Origin: an uncultured bacterium
Lineage (GTDB): Bacteria > Bacteroidota > Bacteroidia > Bacteroidales > JACABE01
DNA length: 34,721 nt
Direction of reading: 5' to 3'
Assembly: GCA_903911455.1 (NCBI GenBank)
Contig: CAIWDQ010000623.1
Span: 1-34,721, forward strand
The notes beneath the pieces were generated by a model, which worked only from the letters and a program-made list of their open reading frames with translations, ran no database searches and was not told the DNA's origin. A program made the translations under genes and the position numbers. Shown here piece after piece: positions 8,154-26,620 of this stretch. Positions within the stretch are counted from its first letter, which is position 1. Every line of letters starts with the position of its first letter.

Positions 8154-8279
8154 AAGAAAGTGCCTTGAGTACTTGGATTGCCTTGAGTACTTAGAGTTAT
8201 AAAGGCAATTAATAATAAGAAAGTGTCTTGAGTACTTGGATTACTTAGAGTATTTAGAGTTGAAAAGGCATTAAATAAT
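8154..8279. repeat. Two ~63-bp direct copies, each containing 9-bp period repeats
   Basis: 8162-8197 gccttgagt acttggatt gccttgagt acttagagt; 8225-8260 gtcttgagt acttggatt acttagagt atttagagt. Both are flanked by aagaaagtg ... aaggca(a)ttaataat. Confidence 0.8.
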
Positions 8280-8282
8280 ATT

Positions 8283-8355: not shown

Positions 8356-8400
8356 ACTCTAAGTACTCTAAGTATTATAAATACTCTATGAACTTTTTCT
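8356..8400. repeat. Degenerate 9-bp tandem tract
   Basis: ACTCTAAGT ACTCTAAGT ATTATAAAT ACTCTATGA ACTTTTTCT. Confidence 0.75.
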
Positions 8401-8503
8401 ATCTTCTTTTTTATCTTAAATTAAATTACATTTATTAATAAGATAAGAAAGAACAGAATAAGAAAGACAATAATTTCCCTTTCGGGGAAAGAATAATTAT
8501 GTT

Positions 8504-8537
8504 AGACCTAACAGGTTTCCAAAACCTGATAGGTCTT
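8504..8537. repeat. Long hairpin AGACCTAACAGGTTT-cca-AAACCTGATAGGTCT
   Basis: 15-bp stem with one mismatch; shares its AACCTG/CAGGTT core with palindromes at 1035 and 2335-2440. Confidence 0.7.
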
Positions 8538-8652: not shown

Positions 8653-8779
8653 TTTAGTATGATTTATTATTTATAACAAGAGGAAATGGATAATTTATTT
8701 CTAAAATAAATAATTTTAGATGGCAATTTTATCAATACAATTTCCATTAATAAAGACTCAGATTTCAAATTAGGCAGTC

Positions 8780-9003
8780 GAGGTCTCAACTTTGTCATTG
8801 GAAGTCTCAACTTCATCAGTGGAGGTCTCGGAAGAGTCATTGGAAGTCTCAACTTCATCAGTGGAGGTCTCGGAAGAGTCATCCGAAGTCTCGGAAGAGT
8901 CATTGGAAGTCTCAACTTCGTTAATGGAAGTCTCAACTTCGTTAGTTGAAGTCTCAACTTCATTAGTGGAAGCCTCAACTTCATCATTGGAAGTCTCGAC
9001 TGC
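8780..9003. repeat. 21-bp tandem array, 10.7 units, no indels (array 1)
   Basis: Units such as GAAGTCTCAACTTCATCAGTG and GAGGTCTCGGAAGAGTCATTG in exact 21-bp register; GAAGT-ctca-ACTTC is an internal dyad; array edges are GCAGTCGAG and CTCGACTGC. Confidence 0.95.
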
Positions 9004-9108
9004 TATTTCACACCCTTATATCTAATTATGATAAGAATGAAGTTGTGATAATTGTGTAATGTAGCTTAAGCAACTCATATTATCTATTAAAAAACAAGAA
9101 TAATTAAC

Positions 9109-9186: not shown

Positions 9187-9258
9187 TAAATCATTAAATC
9201 ACAAATTTACTATATCACCAAATCTCTAAATCACCATATCACCAAATCACCAAATACT
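9187..9258. repeat. Degenerate 8-bp tandem tract abutting the pyrD stop codon
   Basis: TAAATCAT TAAATCAC AAATTTAC TATATCAC CAAATCTC TAAATCAC CATATCAC CAAATCAC CAAATACT. Confidence 0.85.
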
Positions 9259-18367: not shown

Positions 18368-18853
18368 TTATTTAAGATTATCAGCATTAAAAACAAAAGG
18401 AAGCAGGTTTTCAATACCATTAATAATAAGTATTTTACCTGATGCTCCTTTAAGTATTATCTTAATATGTTTTTGTTGTTTATGCTCATACTCAGCCATT
18501 ACCTGACGACAAGATCCGCAGGGCGAAACAGGGATATCTATTTCAAACTTATCAGTATGAGCAGTTATTGCAATAGTTTTCATAGCTACATCAGGATATT
18601 GTGATGCTGCTGCAAACATTGCCACTCTCTCGGCACAAAGTCCTGAAGGATAAGCAGCATTTTCCTGATTACTACCACATATTATCTCACCATTATCTAA
18701 TAAAATTGCAGCCCCAACACAAAATCCTGAGTAAGGAGCATAAGCTTTCTTAGTAGTTTCAGTTGCTTTAGCCAAAAGAGTTTTATCTTCTTCAGATAGT
18801 TGATCTAAAGATAGATACTCTTCATAACTTATTTTAATTTCTTTAGTATTCAT
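18368..18853 (-). CDS. cdd: Cytidine deaminase
   Basis: YAPYSGFCVGAAILLDNGEI, GSNQENAAYPSGLCAERVAMF, VSPCGSCRQVMAEY. Confidence 0.95.
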   Translation of the reverse strand: MNTKEIKISYEEYLSLDQLSEEDKTLLAKATETTKKAYAPYSGFCVGAAILLDNGEIICGSNQENAAYPSGLCAERVAMFAAASQYPDVAMKTIAITAHTDKFEIDIPVSPCGSCRQVMAEYEHKQQKHIKIILKGASGKILIINGIENLLPFVFNADNLK

Positions 18854-19080: not shown

Positions 19081-19332
19081 AAAAAAACGTTGCGGATGGG
19101 TAAAACAACTTTGCACCTACATAAAACAACTTTGCGCCTACCTTAAACAACTTTACTCCTTGGTAAAACAACTTTGATTCTGACTAAAACAACATTCCAT
19201 CTGCAAAAAAGAACTTTGATTCTAACTTAAACAACTTTACACCTAAGTTAAACGACTTTACTCTTCTATAAAATAACATTACACCTTCAAAAAAGAACTT
19301 TGATTCTACCTAAAACAACTTTACACTAATAT
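19081..19332. repeat. 21-bp tandem array, 12 units, no indels (array 2)
   Basis: aaaacaactttgcacctacat / aaaacaactttgcgcctacct / taaacaactttactccttggt / aaaacaactttgattctgact / aaaacaacattccatctgcaa / aaaagaactttgattctaact ... exact 21-bp register for 252 bp. Confidence 0.95.
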
Positions 19333-19415: not shown

Positions 19416-21335
19416 CTATTTAATTACAACCATCTTTTTAGTTGTTGTACTTTTATCAGTTTTTAAACTATAGAAATAAGTTCCACTAGCAAAGGCATTC
19501 AGATTAATTTCAATAGAATGATAACCTGCTGCTACTCTTCCTTCATTAAATGTCTTAATTTTATTACCTAAAAAATCATAAATATCAATATTTACAGTCT
19601 CAGTTTTCTTAAGTTCATAAGATATCCTTGTAGTATTAGTAGCCGGATTAGGCATGTTCTGATATAAAATTGCATTGGTTAGATTATATTCATTAATATT
19701 ACTTGGAGGACCGGTATAAAATCTAATCATAGCTGGAGCAGTTCCTTTAGGATAATAATACCAGGTGTTATCAGTATCAAAGATATACATACTATAATCA
19801 GGCTGAGGAATTGTACTACTTCCAACTGCTAACCAAACACTATCACTACCCCCAAAAGCTTGCAAAGCCACAAAATAAACTGAATCTTTTTGAAGCTTAC
19901 AATTTGTATAATTATTAAAGTATAAATTTATTTCATGAGGATTATCACCAATAGTATGTACAATTTCGTTAGCTTGAATAAAATGATAATCAGTTTCTGC
20001 AACTACAGTTTTGCTTTGTCCCCAACCCCTATATAATATAGCCTTTATTGGAGCATTAATTGTAGTTCCTTCTCCTATTATTACACCGATTGATTTTGCC
20101 CAAAAGCCAGGATATTCTGCATTCACCTCAACCAGATTTGCGAACTGATAAGCATTCACACTTGATCCATTTACTCCATTCCATCTTCGGTAACCATTAT
20201 AATAATTGTTATCTCTCGAGTAAAGCCCTTGATAATAATTGTTAACTACTAAAGATAAAGTGTCTTTATATGGAATTTGACTAATTGAATCACTTACGAC
20301 CTTTATAGCATATTTATATGTTCCTATGGTACTTAAGGTATCAATATCTACGTAAGTAGTATCAGTAATAATTATAGGTAAGGAATCAATATTAGCAGAG
20401 GTTCCGGTTTTAGAATTCGTTAGATCTTTAATTATTAGTTTAACATTCTTCTGAGTAGCTCCTCCGGTATTCGTAAAAGAAGCCTGCATTGTAACCGGAT
20501 AGCTTTGTCCCGAAGGAAATTTAGTATAGCCACTCCACATTGCAGGAGATTGTGCTGCAAAACCACCCCATAACTCACTAAATTCTATGCGATTGCTAGG
20601 GGCGTCTTCAATAGAAACATCATCTATCATCCATCCATAACCACCACTGTATTGTGCTCCACTTGAGGTAGTAGCAGGTGCAATAAATCTAAATCGTATC
20701 CATACCTGAGCCTTATTACCTGCCCACGGAGTAATATTAAATTCTTTGATTCCATATGCATATTTATTAGCATTGCCATTAGCAGTAATGTCAGGATTTG
20801 CTAATACTTTATACCATGTTACATTATCATTACTTACCTCAATAAGAGTGGTGTCATGATTATATGCTTTATATAACTGATAGAATTTAAGACTTACAGC
20901 ATTATGACCAAGAGTATTGATAGGAGTAGAATTCGTTAGTTTAGAGTTCTCATATCCATAGGTGGAATTTACAAGATTAGTGATCCCATCAAAATAAAAT
21001 ACTCCCTGATTTGCAGTTGGGGATAACATATAAGTAGAAGATCCTACATATTGTTTAAAATAAGTTGAAGCATGGGCAGTATCCTGTATCCATGTCCATT
21101 GAGTAGATAATGTCCCTGATTCGTTTGCAACTGTCCACCCTGATGAAGAACTCATATTTGATGACCAGATTACTGCCCTTGTTTGATTTACATTCTTTAC
21201 AAAATAATGATCAAGGTTTTGATAAGTATTCTTTTCAATCCCTGAAAACTTAACAGGAGCAGGTGATACCTGTTGTCCATTTGTAATAATACTACTAATA
21301 ATTAAAAGTATTATAACTGATAAAAATTTTTTCAT
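19416..21335 (-). CDS. Secreted protein with T9SS type A C-terminal sorting domain
   Basis: Signal peptide; MAM/lectin-like GYGWMIDDVSIED; C-terminus LYQNMPNPATNTTRISYELKKTETVNIDIYDFLGNKI...GTYFYSLKTDKSTTTKKMVVIK. Confidence 0.9.
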   Translation of the reverse strand: MKKFLSVIILLIISSIITNGQQVSPAPVKFSGIEKNTYQNLDHYFVKNVNQTRAVIWSSNMSSSSGWTVANESGTLSTQWTWIQDTAHASTYFKQYVGSSTYMLSPTANQGVFYFDGITNLVNSTYGYENSKLTNSTPINTLGHNAVSLKFYQLYKAYNHDTTLIEVSNDNVTWYKVLANPDITANGNANKYAYGIKEFNITPWAGNKAQVWIRFRFIAPATTSSGAQYSGGYGWMIDDVSIEDAPSNRIEFSELWGGFAAQSPAMWSGYTKFPSGQSYPVTMQASFTNTGGATQKNVKLIIKDLTNSKTGTSANIDSLPIIITDTTYVDIDTLSTIGTYKYAIKVVSDSISQIPYKDTLSLVVNNYYQGLYSRDNNYYNGYRRWNGVNGSSVNAYQFANLVEVNAEYPGFWAKSIGVIIGEGTTINAPIKAILYRGWGQSKTVVAETDYHFIQANEIVHTIGDNPHEINLYFNNYTNCKLQKDSVYFVALQAFGGSDSVWLAVGSSTIPQPDYSMYIFDTDNTWYYYPKGTAPAMIRFYTGPPSNINEYNLTNAILYQNMPNPATNTTRISYELKKTETVNIDIYDFLGNKIKTFNEGRVAAGYHSIEINLNAFASGTYFYSLKTDKSTTTKKMVVIK

Positions 21336-23950: not shown

Positions 23951-24187
23951 AGTGGTTTCAATTGACCCATTTAAACATACTTTTTACTAAAATGTTCACA
24001 GGATAATCTTTGTATAGACCTTGAATGCAAAGTCTCATTAAATAAAAAAACCGTCATTGCGAGCCCAATACTTTCAGCATACCAAATGAAATTAAAAACC
24101 TGACAAACATTAAAAATCAACTGTATTGATTAATAAAATAATTTAATATTAAATTTTAACAAAGTGTTAATTAAAAAAAAGATAGTA

Positions 24188-24455
24188 GTTTAAAGTTTCA
24201 AACACCTCCATTTTCAAAAAATATACTGTTTGAAAGTTTCAAGTACTCTTTATTTCAAAAAATATACTGTTTGGAAGTACCAAGTACCATCTTTTTCAAA
24301 AAATATAGTGTTTGAAAGTTTCAGGTAGTATTTTTTTCAAAAAATAAAATGAGAAAAAAGTTTCAAGTACCATCTTTTTCAAAAAATGTATTGTTTGAAA
24401 GTTCCAAGGTGTCCATATTTCAAAAAATACTATAGTTGAAAGTTTCAAAGTGTCT
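24188..24455. repeat. ~41-bp degenerate tandem array, 6 units plus partial (array 3)
   Basis: Unit GTTTGAAAGTTTCAAGTACCATCTTTTTCAAAAAATATACT, unit lengths 40-42 bp, containing the dyads TTGAAAgTTTCAA and TTTTTcAAAAA. Confidence 0.9.
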
Positions 24456-24586: not shown

Positions 24587-25231
24587 ATGAAAAGAAAAAC
24601 ATTATTTATTATCTGCCTGATGATAATCAGTTTGCAGCTAACAGCCCAAAGCAAGAAGTTTTATATTGGCTTGATGGGCTCTACAGATTTTTATTATCCT
24701 AAATTTGAAAGCTCATATCAGATTAATACTATTCAAAGAGATCTGGGTTTCCATTATGGTGTTACTATACAATATAATATAAGTGAGAAGTTGTCTATCA
24801 AAACTGGATTAAACTATTCTACTTTCAATTATAAAGTTATAACTAGTTATTTTGATCCAAAATATGGTTTTGGTGGTCATGAGGACAGTTTAAGTTTTAG
24901 GAATTGGAATATTCCAATTATGCTAAAATATTCATTATTTTCAGAAGGTAATTTTAAAATTACTCCCTCTTTAGGATATGTTATTAGTTTTTTAAAAGGT
25001 AATCGTTCATCTTTTTACGTATTTTCATACTCTTTAGATTCAAATAAAGATTATAAATTAACTATGCATTCGACCCAGTTTAATTTAGGCTTAGAATATT
25101 TAATTAAAGATAAAATCCTCATCACCTTAGAGCCCTATATTAATTGGAACTTTACCGAGATAGATGCCATTCTTTATAAAAAGAATACCATTTCCTTTGG
25201 CGAGATATTAAGTATTAACTATAAATTTTAA
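24587..25231 (+). CDS. Outer membrane beta-barrel protein (tandem paralog 1)
   Basis: Signal peptide MKRKTLFIICLMIISLQLTAQ; FNLGLEYLIKDKILITLEPY ... EILSINYKF. Confidence 0.85.
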   Translation: MKRKTLFIICLMIISLQLTAQSKKFYIGLMGSTDFYYPKFESSYQINTIQRDLGFHYGVTIQYNISEKLSIKTGLNYSTFNYKVITSYFDPKYGFGGHEDSLSFRNWNIPIMLKYSLFSEGNFKITPSLGYVISFLKGNRSSFYVFSYSLDSNKDYKLTMHSTQFNLGLEYLIKDKILITLEPYINWNFTEIDAILYKKNTISFGEILSINYKF

Positions 25232-25244
25232 ACACAATATTATT

Positions 25245-25940
25245 ATGAAAAGAAAAATATTAATTAGTATCTGCCTGTTGATATTCAGTTTGCAGATAAA
25301 AGCGCAAGATCATAAGTTTTATTTAGGTATAATGAGTTCTATGGATTACTATAAATTTCAAAGAGATGATTATTCAATCACTTCCTCGAATGATACTTAT
25401 TTGGGATATCATTTGGGAATAAAAGCCCAGTATGATATTAATAAGAAGTTCTCGTTAAGAAGTGGAATTGATTACTCAAAAATAGTAATTAAGTTTGATT
25501 ACACAGGATTCTTGCCAATTGATGCTGCAGACCCATTGCTTATGAATGATCCTAAAAACACAATAGATAAAAGTTATTTTCTTCATATTCCATTAATGGC
25601 AGGTTATACTATATATAAAAAAGGGGGCTTTAGATTCACTCCTTCTTTTGGATATATATTAAATATTAAACTAACTAGTAGGGTAAATACTACTTTAATT
25701 ACATATGATGCACAAAAAAACGCATATATTGAAACACCTCAGTTTACAGTATATAACAATCTGCTTACGTATCATTCGTTGCAGCTAAATTTAGGTTGCG
25801 AATACATGCTTGGCAAGAAATACCTTATCACCTTCGAGCCCTATTTAAACTACATCATTGATAAAAATAATTCTTATCTAAATATATTAAGTTCGCCATT
25901 TACCTTTGGCGGAATAGTAAGTGTTAATTATAGATTGTAA
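25245..25940 (+). CDS. Outer membrane beta-barrel protein (tandem paralog 2)
   Basis: Signal peptide MKRKILISICLLIFSLQIKAQ; LNLGCEYMLGKKYLITFEPY ... GIVSVNYRL. Confidence 0.85.
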   Translation: MKRKILISICLLIFSLQIKAQDHKFYLGIMSSMDYYKFQRDDYSITSSNDTYLGYHLGIKAQYDINKKFSLRSGIDYSKIVIKFDYTGFLPIDAADPLLMNDPKNTIDKSYFLHIPLMAGYTIYKKGGFRFTPSFGYILNIKLTSRVNTTLITYDAQKNAYIETPQFTVYNNLLTYHSLQLNLGCEYMLGKKYLITFEPYLNYIIDKNNSYLNILSSPFTFGGIVSVNYRL

Positions 25941-25951
25941 ATATTGTTATT

Positions 25952-26620
25952 ATGAAAAGAAAATTATTAATAACTATCTGCCTGTTGATATTCAGTTTGC
26001 AGATAAAAGCACAGCATCATAATTATTATGTTGGCTTAATGTCATCCGTAGATTTTTATAATTATTATTACAACTCGTATGGTAATTTTCATGAAAACAT
26101 TGAAAATAATTTAAGCTATCATTATGGTTTAAAGTTGCAATTTGATGCTAATAATTGGTTTTCGCTACGACAGGGAATATATTTCTCAAGGGTTGCATAT
26201 AGATATGATGATCCATATTTTGGCACAATATATCAAAGTAATCCACTTCAAACTGTTCCCACTTATTATATAATTAAAAATTACTTTATAAATATTCCTT
26301 TTATGGCTGGCTTTACTCTATTTTCAGAAAAGGATTTTAAATTCACGCCTTCAATAGGTTTAATATTAAATATAAATAATAGTTCAAGTTTTACTACTTA
26401 TTATCCTACATATACAACTAACTATACTGATAATTATAATGATATTTCTATTTCTGTTCAACTTAATTTAGGGTTTGAATATTTATATAAAGATAAATTC
26501 CTTTTTACTCTTGAACCTTTAACAACTTTTAAATATGGTAACGAAATAAATAATGGCAATATAATATCTACACCCCGGAATTTTGGAATAATGCTTAGTG
26601 TAAATTATAAATTATTATAA
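25952..26620 (+). CDS. Outer membrane beta-barrel protein (tandem paralog 3)
   Basis: Signal peptide MKRKLLITICLLIFSLQIKAQ; LNLGFEYLYKDKFLFTLEPL ... GIMLSVNYKLL. Confidence 0.85.
   Translation: MKRKLLITICLLIFSLQIKAQHHNYYVGLMSSVDFYNYYYNSYGNFHENIENNLSYHYGLKLQFDANNWFSLRQGIYFSRVAYRYDDPYFGTIYQSNPLQTVPTYYIIKNYFINIPFMAGFTLFSEKDFKFTPSIGLILNINNSSSFTTYYPTYTTNYTDNYNDISISVQLNLGFEYLYKDKFLFTLEPLTTFKYGNEINNGNIISTPRNFGIMLSVNYKLL

Follow-up and report, generated by a model that had tools for sequence, protein, structure and literature searches.

A 21-bp intergenic array in an uncultured Bacteroidota belongs to a dense class of arrays that share unit length rather than sequence

Introduction

The literature has yet to explain why some bacteria bear many arrays whose unit length is fixed while the sequence is arbitrary. 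The locus at 19081-19332 raises this question within one intergenic region: units of 21 bp keep their register from one end to the other, and part of each unit varies. We asked whether the spacing itself is maintained and what might maintain it. The locus was analysed within a window, the whole stretch of 34,721 nucleotides in which it lies, which belongs to the 4.44-Mb draft genome (657 contigs) of an uncultured Bacteroidota.

Structure of the array

The features of the window used here are as follows.

18368-18853, minus strand: cytidine deaminase gene cdd (PF00383), whose start faces the array at a distance of 248 bp
19081-19101, no strand: degenerate first unit, AAAAAAACGTTGCGGATGGGT, placed by alignment in the 21-bp register
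19102-19332, no strand: array of 11 clear 21-bp units with the consensus TAAAACAACTTTGCTCCTACA, plus an 84-bp higher-order repeat
19416-21335, minus strand: gene of a 639-aa protein with a type IX secretion C-terminal sorting domain (PF18962), whose end faces the array at a distance of 90 bp
8765-9012, no strand: second 21-bp array of the same class, found by TRF, with the unrelated sequence GTCTCAACTTCGTCATTGGAA and a paralogue on contig C305
24167-24449, no strand: third array of the class, found by TRF, with a period of 41/83 (20.5-20.75 bp per monomer)

The initial annotation counted twelve units in exact register. Through alignment in the 21-bp register, we found eleven clear units without any gap at 19102-19332, but the first unit is degenerate. 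The clear array thus extends from 19101 to 19326 or 19332, and TRF placed it at 19101-19326 with periods of 21, 42 and 84. In the 19101 register, columns A3-A5, A8, C9, T11 and T12 are invariant and positions 13-15 and 19-21 are variable. The recurrence of GATTCT in units 5, 7 and 11, described earlier, was confirmed. Identity at lags of 21, 42, 63 and 84 in the array was 0.66, 0.66, 0.63 and 0.765, and the 84-bp higher-order repeat had not been mentioned before. Among 2000 first-order Markov sequences, the highest identity at any lag between 5 and 99 was 0.507, well short of 0.765.

The array at 19102-19332 is closed in all six frames; stops number 6, 3 and 7 on the plus strand. The minus-strand heptad frame contains exactly two stops, both TAG, as the initial annotation had stated in arguing that it does not code; the other minus frames contain 10 and 6. 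A CRISPR array was considered and rejected, because every unit position traces to one consensus and the variable positions recur (GATTCT, CACCT). For the cytidine deaminase, the nearest named relatives come from Bacteroidota MAGs, which, like the type IX sorting domain of the neighbouring protein, fits a Bacteroidota host. The gene order upstream of cdd differs from that of the window in all four same-family genomes.

Other repeats of the window

The C305 paralogue of the 8765-9012 array differs from it by one whole 21-bp unit. A small palindrome, TTGAAAGTTTCAA, lies within the 24167-24449 array, and hairpins are frequent in 41/83-bp arrays elsewhere in the genome, which suggests that these arrays are built of alternating inverted half-units. 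Two 63-bp copies at 8154-8280 are built on a GAGTACTTA-like 9-mer, and many further intergenic sites in the genome bear short repeats related to them. The 8-bp AAATCACC repeat at 9188-9255 belongs to an intergenic family that is scattered over many contigs. The segment at 8397-8512 is a dispersed intergenic element with 87% identity to L034:16798-16913 and partial identity to L034:16149-16234. Three successive genes at 24587-26620, the first encoding an outer-membrane beta-barrel protein, are apparent tandem duplicates, their first 100 bases being 77-79% identical in DNA.

Genome-wide occurrence of the arrays

Arrays of 60 bp or more were collected with TRF from 792 kb, one sixth of the genome. 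The periods 20, 21, 41, 42, 63, 83, 84, 103, 105 and 123 were counted as the class. The monomer was 20-21 bp in 66 of the 80 arrays found there, exactly 21 bp in 46 and shorter in 20; no monomer was longer. A 147-bp period (7 x 21) was seen in two arrays (L042:1181-1454 and L065:2627-2978). The density was 65 per Mb in contigs chosen without a repeat search and 83 per Mb in all contigs, and therefore the whole genome is estimated to contain about 290-370 arrays. By the same procedure we found 15 per Mb in four genomes of the same family. In a further 858 kb, taken from 80 other records that are mostly of Bacteroidota, the density was 3.5 per Mb. The array at 19102-19332 is thus one of several hundred non-coding arrays whose monomer spans two helical turns (20-21 bp) independently of its sequence.

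The 34 distinct 21-bp consensus units had a mean best circular similarity equal to that of shuffled units, and 11 consensus pairs were distantly similar (14 or more of 21 matches) against 2.6 expected. No universal motif was present in the class; only AAAA and AAAAA exceeded chance, both marginally, occurring in 20 and 7 of 51 arrays against shuffled maxima of 19 and 6. Arrays have a GC content of 0.379 against 0.262 in other intergenic DNA. Their median distance to the nearest gene is 188 bp, a position in the middle of the intergenic region, and their orientation to the flanking genes is random, also within families. A UTR element was rejected on the random orientation.

The initial annotation had proposed a conserved half and a variable half. 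This fits the 19102-19332 array and a few families and is no general rule, the first-harmonic z being 1.0 over 25 arrays. Curvature divided in the same way: in a wedge model, the 19102-19332 array scores as strongly curved, but 42 arrays of the class did not exceed their column-permuted versions (z -0.30 +/- 0.20). No 10.5-bp sub-period was present in the conservation or the AT content of the arrays.

Families, relatives and orthology

Many arrays form small dispersed families. Their relatives lie at unlinked loci of the same genome, with flanks that are unrelated or share a short stretch. The relative of the 19102-19332 array is on contig C59 in opposite orientation. No similarity between the 19102-19332 array and the array at 8765-9012 could be detected, in agreement with the earlier statement that the two are unrelated. 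In one family, a conserved stretch of about 55-90 bp outside the repeats borders one array end (L043:14443-14532 and L039:19522-19628).

Among 58 related genomes, the tested array families matched one array only, with 70% identity, in G001, a genome from another genus of the same family. This array is orthologous, the adjacent gene being 79% identical over 696 bp, and it aligns without gaps at about 70% identity with the register kept. The half GGTCATCGTGCAC is retained, and the other half has changed in nearly all units. A single 21-spaced match in G031 was rejected as a relative: it comprises two copies only and lies within an apparent protein-coding frame, and it is therefore a chance match. 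Four same-family genomes were examined at orthologous or syntenic loci, and most of these loci have no array, which makes individual arrays dispensable.

Related arrays seemed to match end to end at equal length, as if their copy number were frozen. This was rejected, because identity is about the same at any whole-unit shift; the equal lengths therefore reflect query overlap, and the units turn over. Array comparisons are thus silent on copy number, and only sub-unit indels are informative.

Evidence for a maintained spacing

Pairs of related arrays were set against pairs of related intergenic segments outside arrays, both from this genome and under identical alignment settings. The 25 array pairs contained 1013 substitutions and 21 gap events, mostly paired +1/-1, against 684 substitutions and 93 gap events in 27 control pairs. 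Sub-unit indels were depleted in arrays with an odds ratio of 6.6 (p = 4e-18), and of 5.8 (p = 7e-10) when the control was restricted to its GC-richer half (285:34, with GC of at least 0.32), figures to be read with the caveats that detecting arrays through their periodicity disfavours queries with indels, and that pairs within a family share a query and are not fully independent. Within arrays, TRF gave 1315 substitutions to 91 gap columns, against 939 to 338 in an earlier control whose 338 gap columns are the sum from a gap-length table.

Frequent out-of-register indels in homologous arrays of relatives had been named in advance as evidence against a maintained spacing; the G001 orthologue has none, and in the array pairs of this genome they are rare. 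The proposal that the 21-bp spacing is maintained is supported by this depletion of sub-unit indels and by monomers of 20-21 bp, never longer, throughout the genome. The roughly six-fold deficit of pitch-breaking indels relative to comparable DNA points to a role that depends on the spacing.

Substitutions between related arrays concentrate in unit columns (sum chi-square 653, against a null mean of 178 and maximum of 238). Part of this clustering occurs in nearly all units and is concerted evolution; it may also reflect constraint.

Possible explanations of the constant unit length

We infer, with a probability of about 0.4, that the array pitch is under selection, and that something, likely a DNA-binding protein, is assembled on the units one by one on one face of the helix. 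The reasons are that monomers measure 20-21 bp with none above 21, that sub-unit indels are depleted and that substitutions are clustered in columns; the non-coding state, random orientation, mid-intergenic place, raised GC and G001 orthologue also support it. The factor would most likely be a polymerising or cooperative DNA-binding protein that tolerates differing base sequence, its sites all lying on the same side of the helix. An indel would turn the adjacent sites away from that side, and a change by a whole unit would leave the phase intact and the unit number free to vary. The role of the pitch would be architectural, in the nucleoid, rather than gene-specific. Against selection stand the lack of a motif common to the families, of a 10.5-bp sub-period and of excess curvature, and no candidate binding protein for the arrays was identified. 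The more specific picture, in which several hundred non-coding arrays have the two-turn pitch as their sole common property, are held by purifying selection and serve as tracks for a putative chromosomal protein that reads phase and not sequence, is one we consider somewhat doubtful.

The dispensability of individual arrays also speaks against selection, and neutral inheritance with turnover gives a shared period without function. A few ancestral 21-bp arrays may have been copied to many intergenic sites, the period being inherited while the sequence drifts; unequal exchange by whole units, or slippage, would homogenise the arrays, and units with an indel would pair badly and get lost. We regard this origin as quite possible, although we do not lean towards it. 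It accommodates the dispersed families, the similarity at any unit shift, the array-wide concerted changes, the excess of distantly similar families and the absence of two-copy 21-bp seeds outside arrays, and the arrays of 41, 83 and 103 bp resemble a 1-bp deletion amplified along with its neighbours. However, at the control indel rate only about 31% of periods would be intact once 10 substitutions per unit had been fixed, yet monomers above 21 bp are absent, and column-specific constraint is unexpected under pure neutrality. Selection and neutral turnover both fit most of the data, and the indel deficit and the lack of monomers above 21 bp slightly favour selection.

A mutational step of two turns, such as the filling-in of nicks staggered by 21 bp, could repeatedly make arrays from local sequence, and this would suit an identical period in mostly unrelated sequences. 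We consider it improbable, because no two-copy 21-bp tandem duplication was found outside arrays in 792 kb, where duplications of 8-12 bp are common, and because the arrays are far richer in GC than the presumed local source DNA. A bias towards 21-bp duplication was rejected on the first of these grounds, and mutagenic retroelement copying because the substitution spectrum has no A bias.

A transcribed RNA element is less probable still. Subirana and Messeguer also put forward an RNA role for Bacillus repeats (PMC8161180), and 34% of the arrays, many 41/83-bp ones among them, fold better than their column-permuted versions (z below -2, better strand). However, orientation to the flanking genes is random even within families, the 19102-19332 array does not fold better than its column-permuted versions (z +0.7 and +1.5), and a tRNA is the sole Rfam match in the window.

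A decayed or cryptic coding repeat of seven residues, suggested by a period divisible by 3 and an open frame in 41 of 66 arrays, is already largely refuted and scarcely credible, because any 21-bp unit free of stops will leave a frame open, 25 of the 66 arrays have no frame without a stop, substitutions show no codon-phase or third-position bias overall and in most families fall evenly on the codon positions, and periods of 41, 83 and 103 bp disrupt the frame.

The two-turn length and the idea of a nucleoid protein are already known from Subirana and Messeguer, and the evolutionary measurement was not found in the available portion of their paper (PMC8161180). The unusually array-dense host genome allows a direct test, in which the resistance to change lies in the spacing and not in the sequence; this makes the hypothesis of a protein platform experimentally approachable. 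The number of indels per substitution is a measurable expectation for other genomes.

Comparison with known systems

The TAACTGA heptamer repeats are intergenic and occur in Beggiatoaceae, Cyanobacteria and some Bacteroidetes (PMC4679880). They likewise form many intergenic direct-repeat sets per genome, partly in Bacteroidetes, but they have a single fixed 7-bp sequence near start codons, whereas here the length is fixed, the sequence is free and the median distance to a gene is about 190 bp. Borg tandem repeats resemble our arrays in being regularly distributed, with sequence mostly novel per region; unlike ours, they are perfect, vary in unit length (24.8 +/- 16.3 bp), belong to archaeal extrachromosomal elements and lie in genes in 44% of cases (PMC12660748). 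CRISPR arrays share a unit that is partly conserved and partly variable, but no unrelated unique spacers are present here, and the variable halves are related and homogenised within an array.

Subirana and Messeguer are said to have described a 22/44-nt repeat class in J Bacteriol in 2020. Another paper of theirs describes units of constant 20-21 (also 52) nt and variable sequence, non-coding, with several families per genome and few other sizes, in Bacillus, Cyanobacteria, Actinobacteria and others (PMC8161180). The unit length is there equated with two helix turns, and protein polymerisation, nucleoid stabilisation or small RNAs are proposed. A characteristic short sequence is present in all repeats of most arrays, with B. 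weihaiensis as an example, as a feature and not as the definition of the class; our arrays have no such general motif. Families of that class are given as species-specific; here, the match in G001 bears on this point. Like that class, the arrays here are non-coding and have a constant unit of 20-21 bp, with 34 distinct consensus units in one genome. They differ from it in their host, an uncultured Bacteroidota, in their density of about 65-83 per Mb and in the higher-order forms of 41, 83 and 103 bp, and they add to it the measurement of indel depletion and an orthologous array across genera. The arrays of this genome are therefore of the Subirana-Messeguer kind, constant in size and variable in sequence, and form a very dense Bacteroidota member of it.
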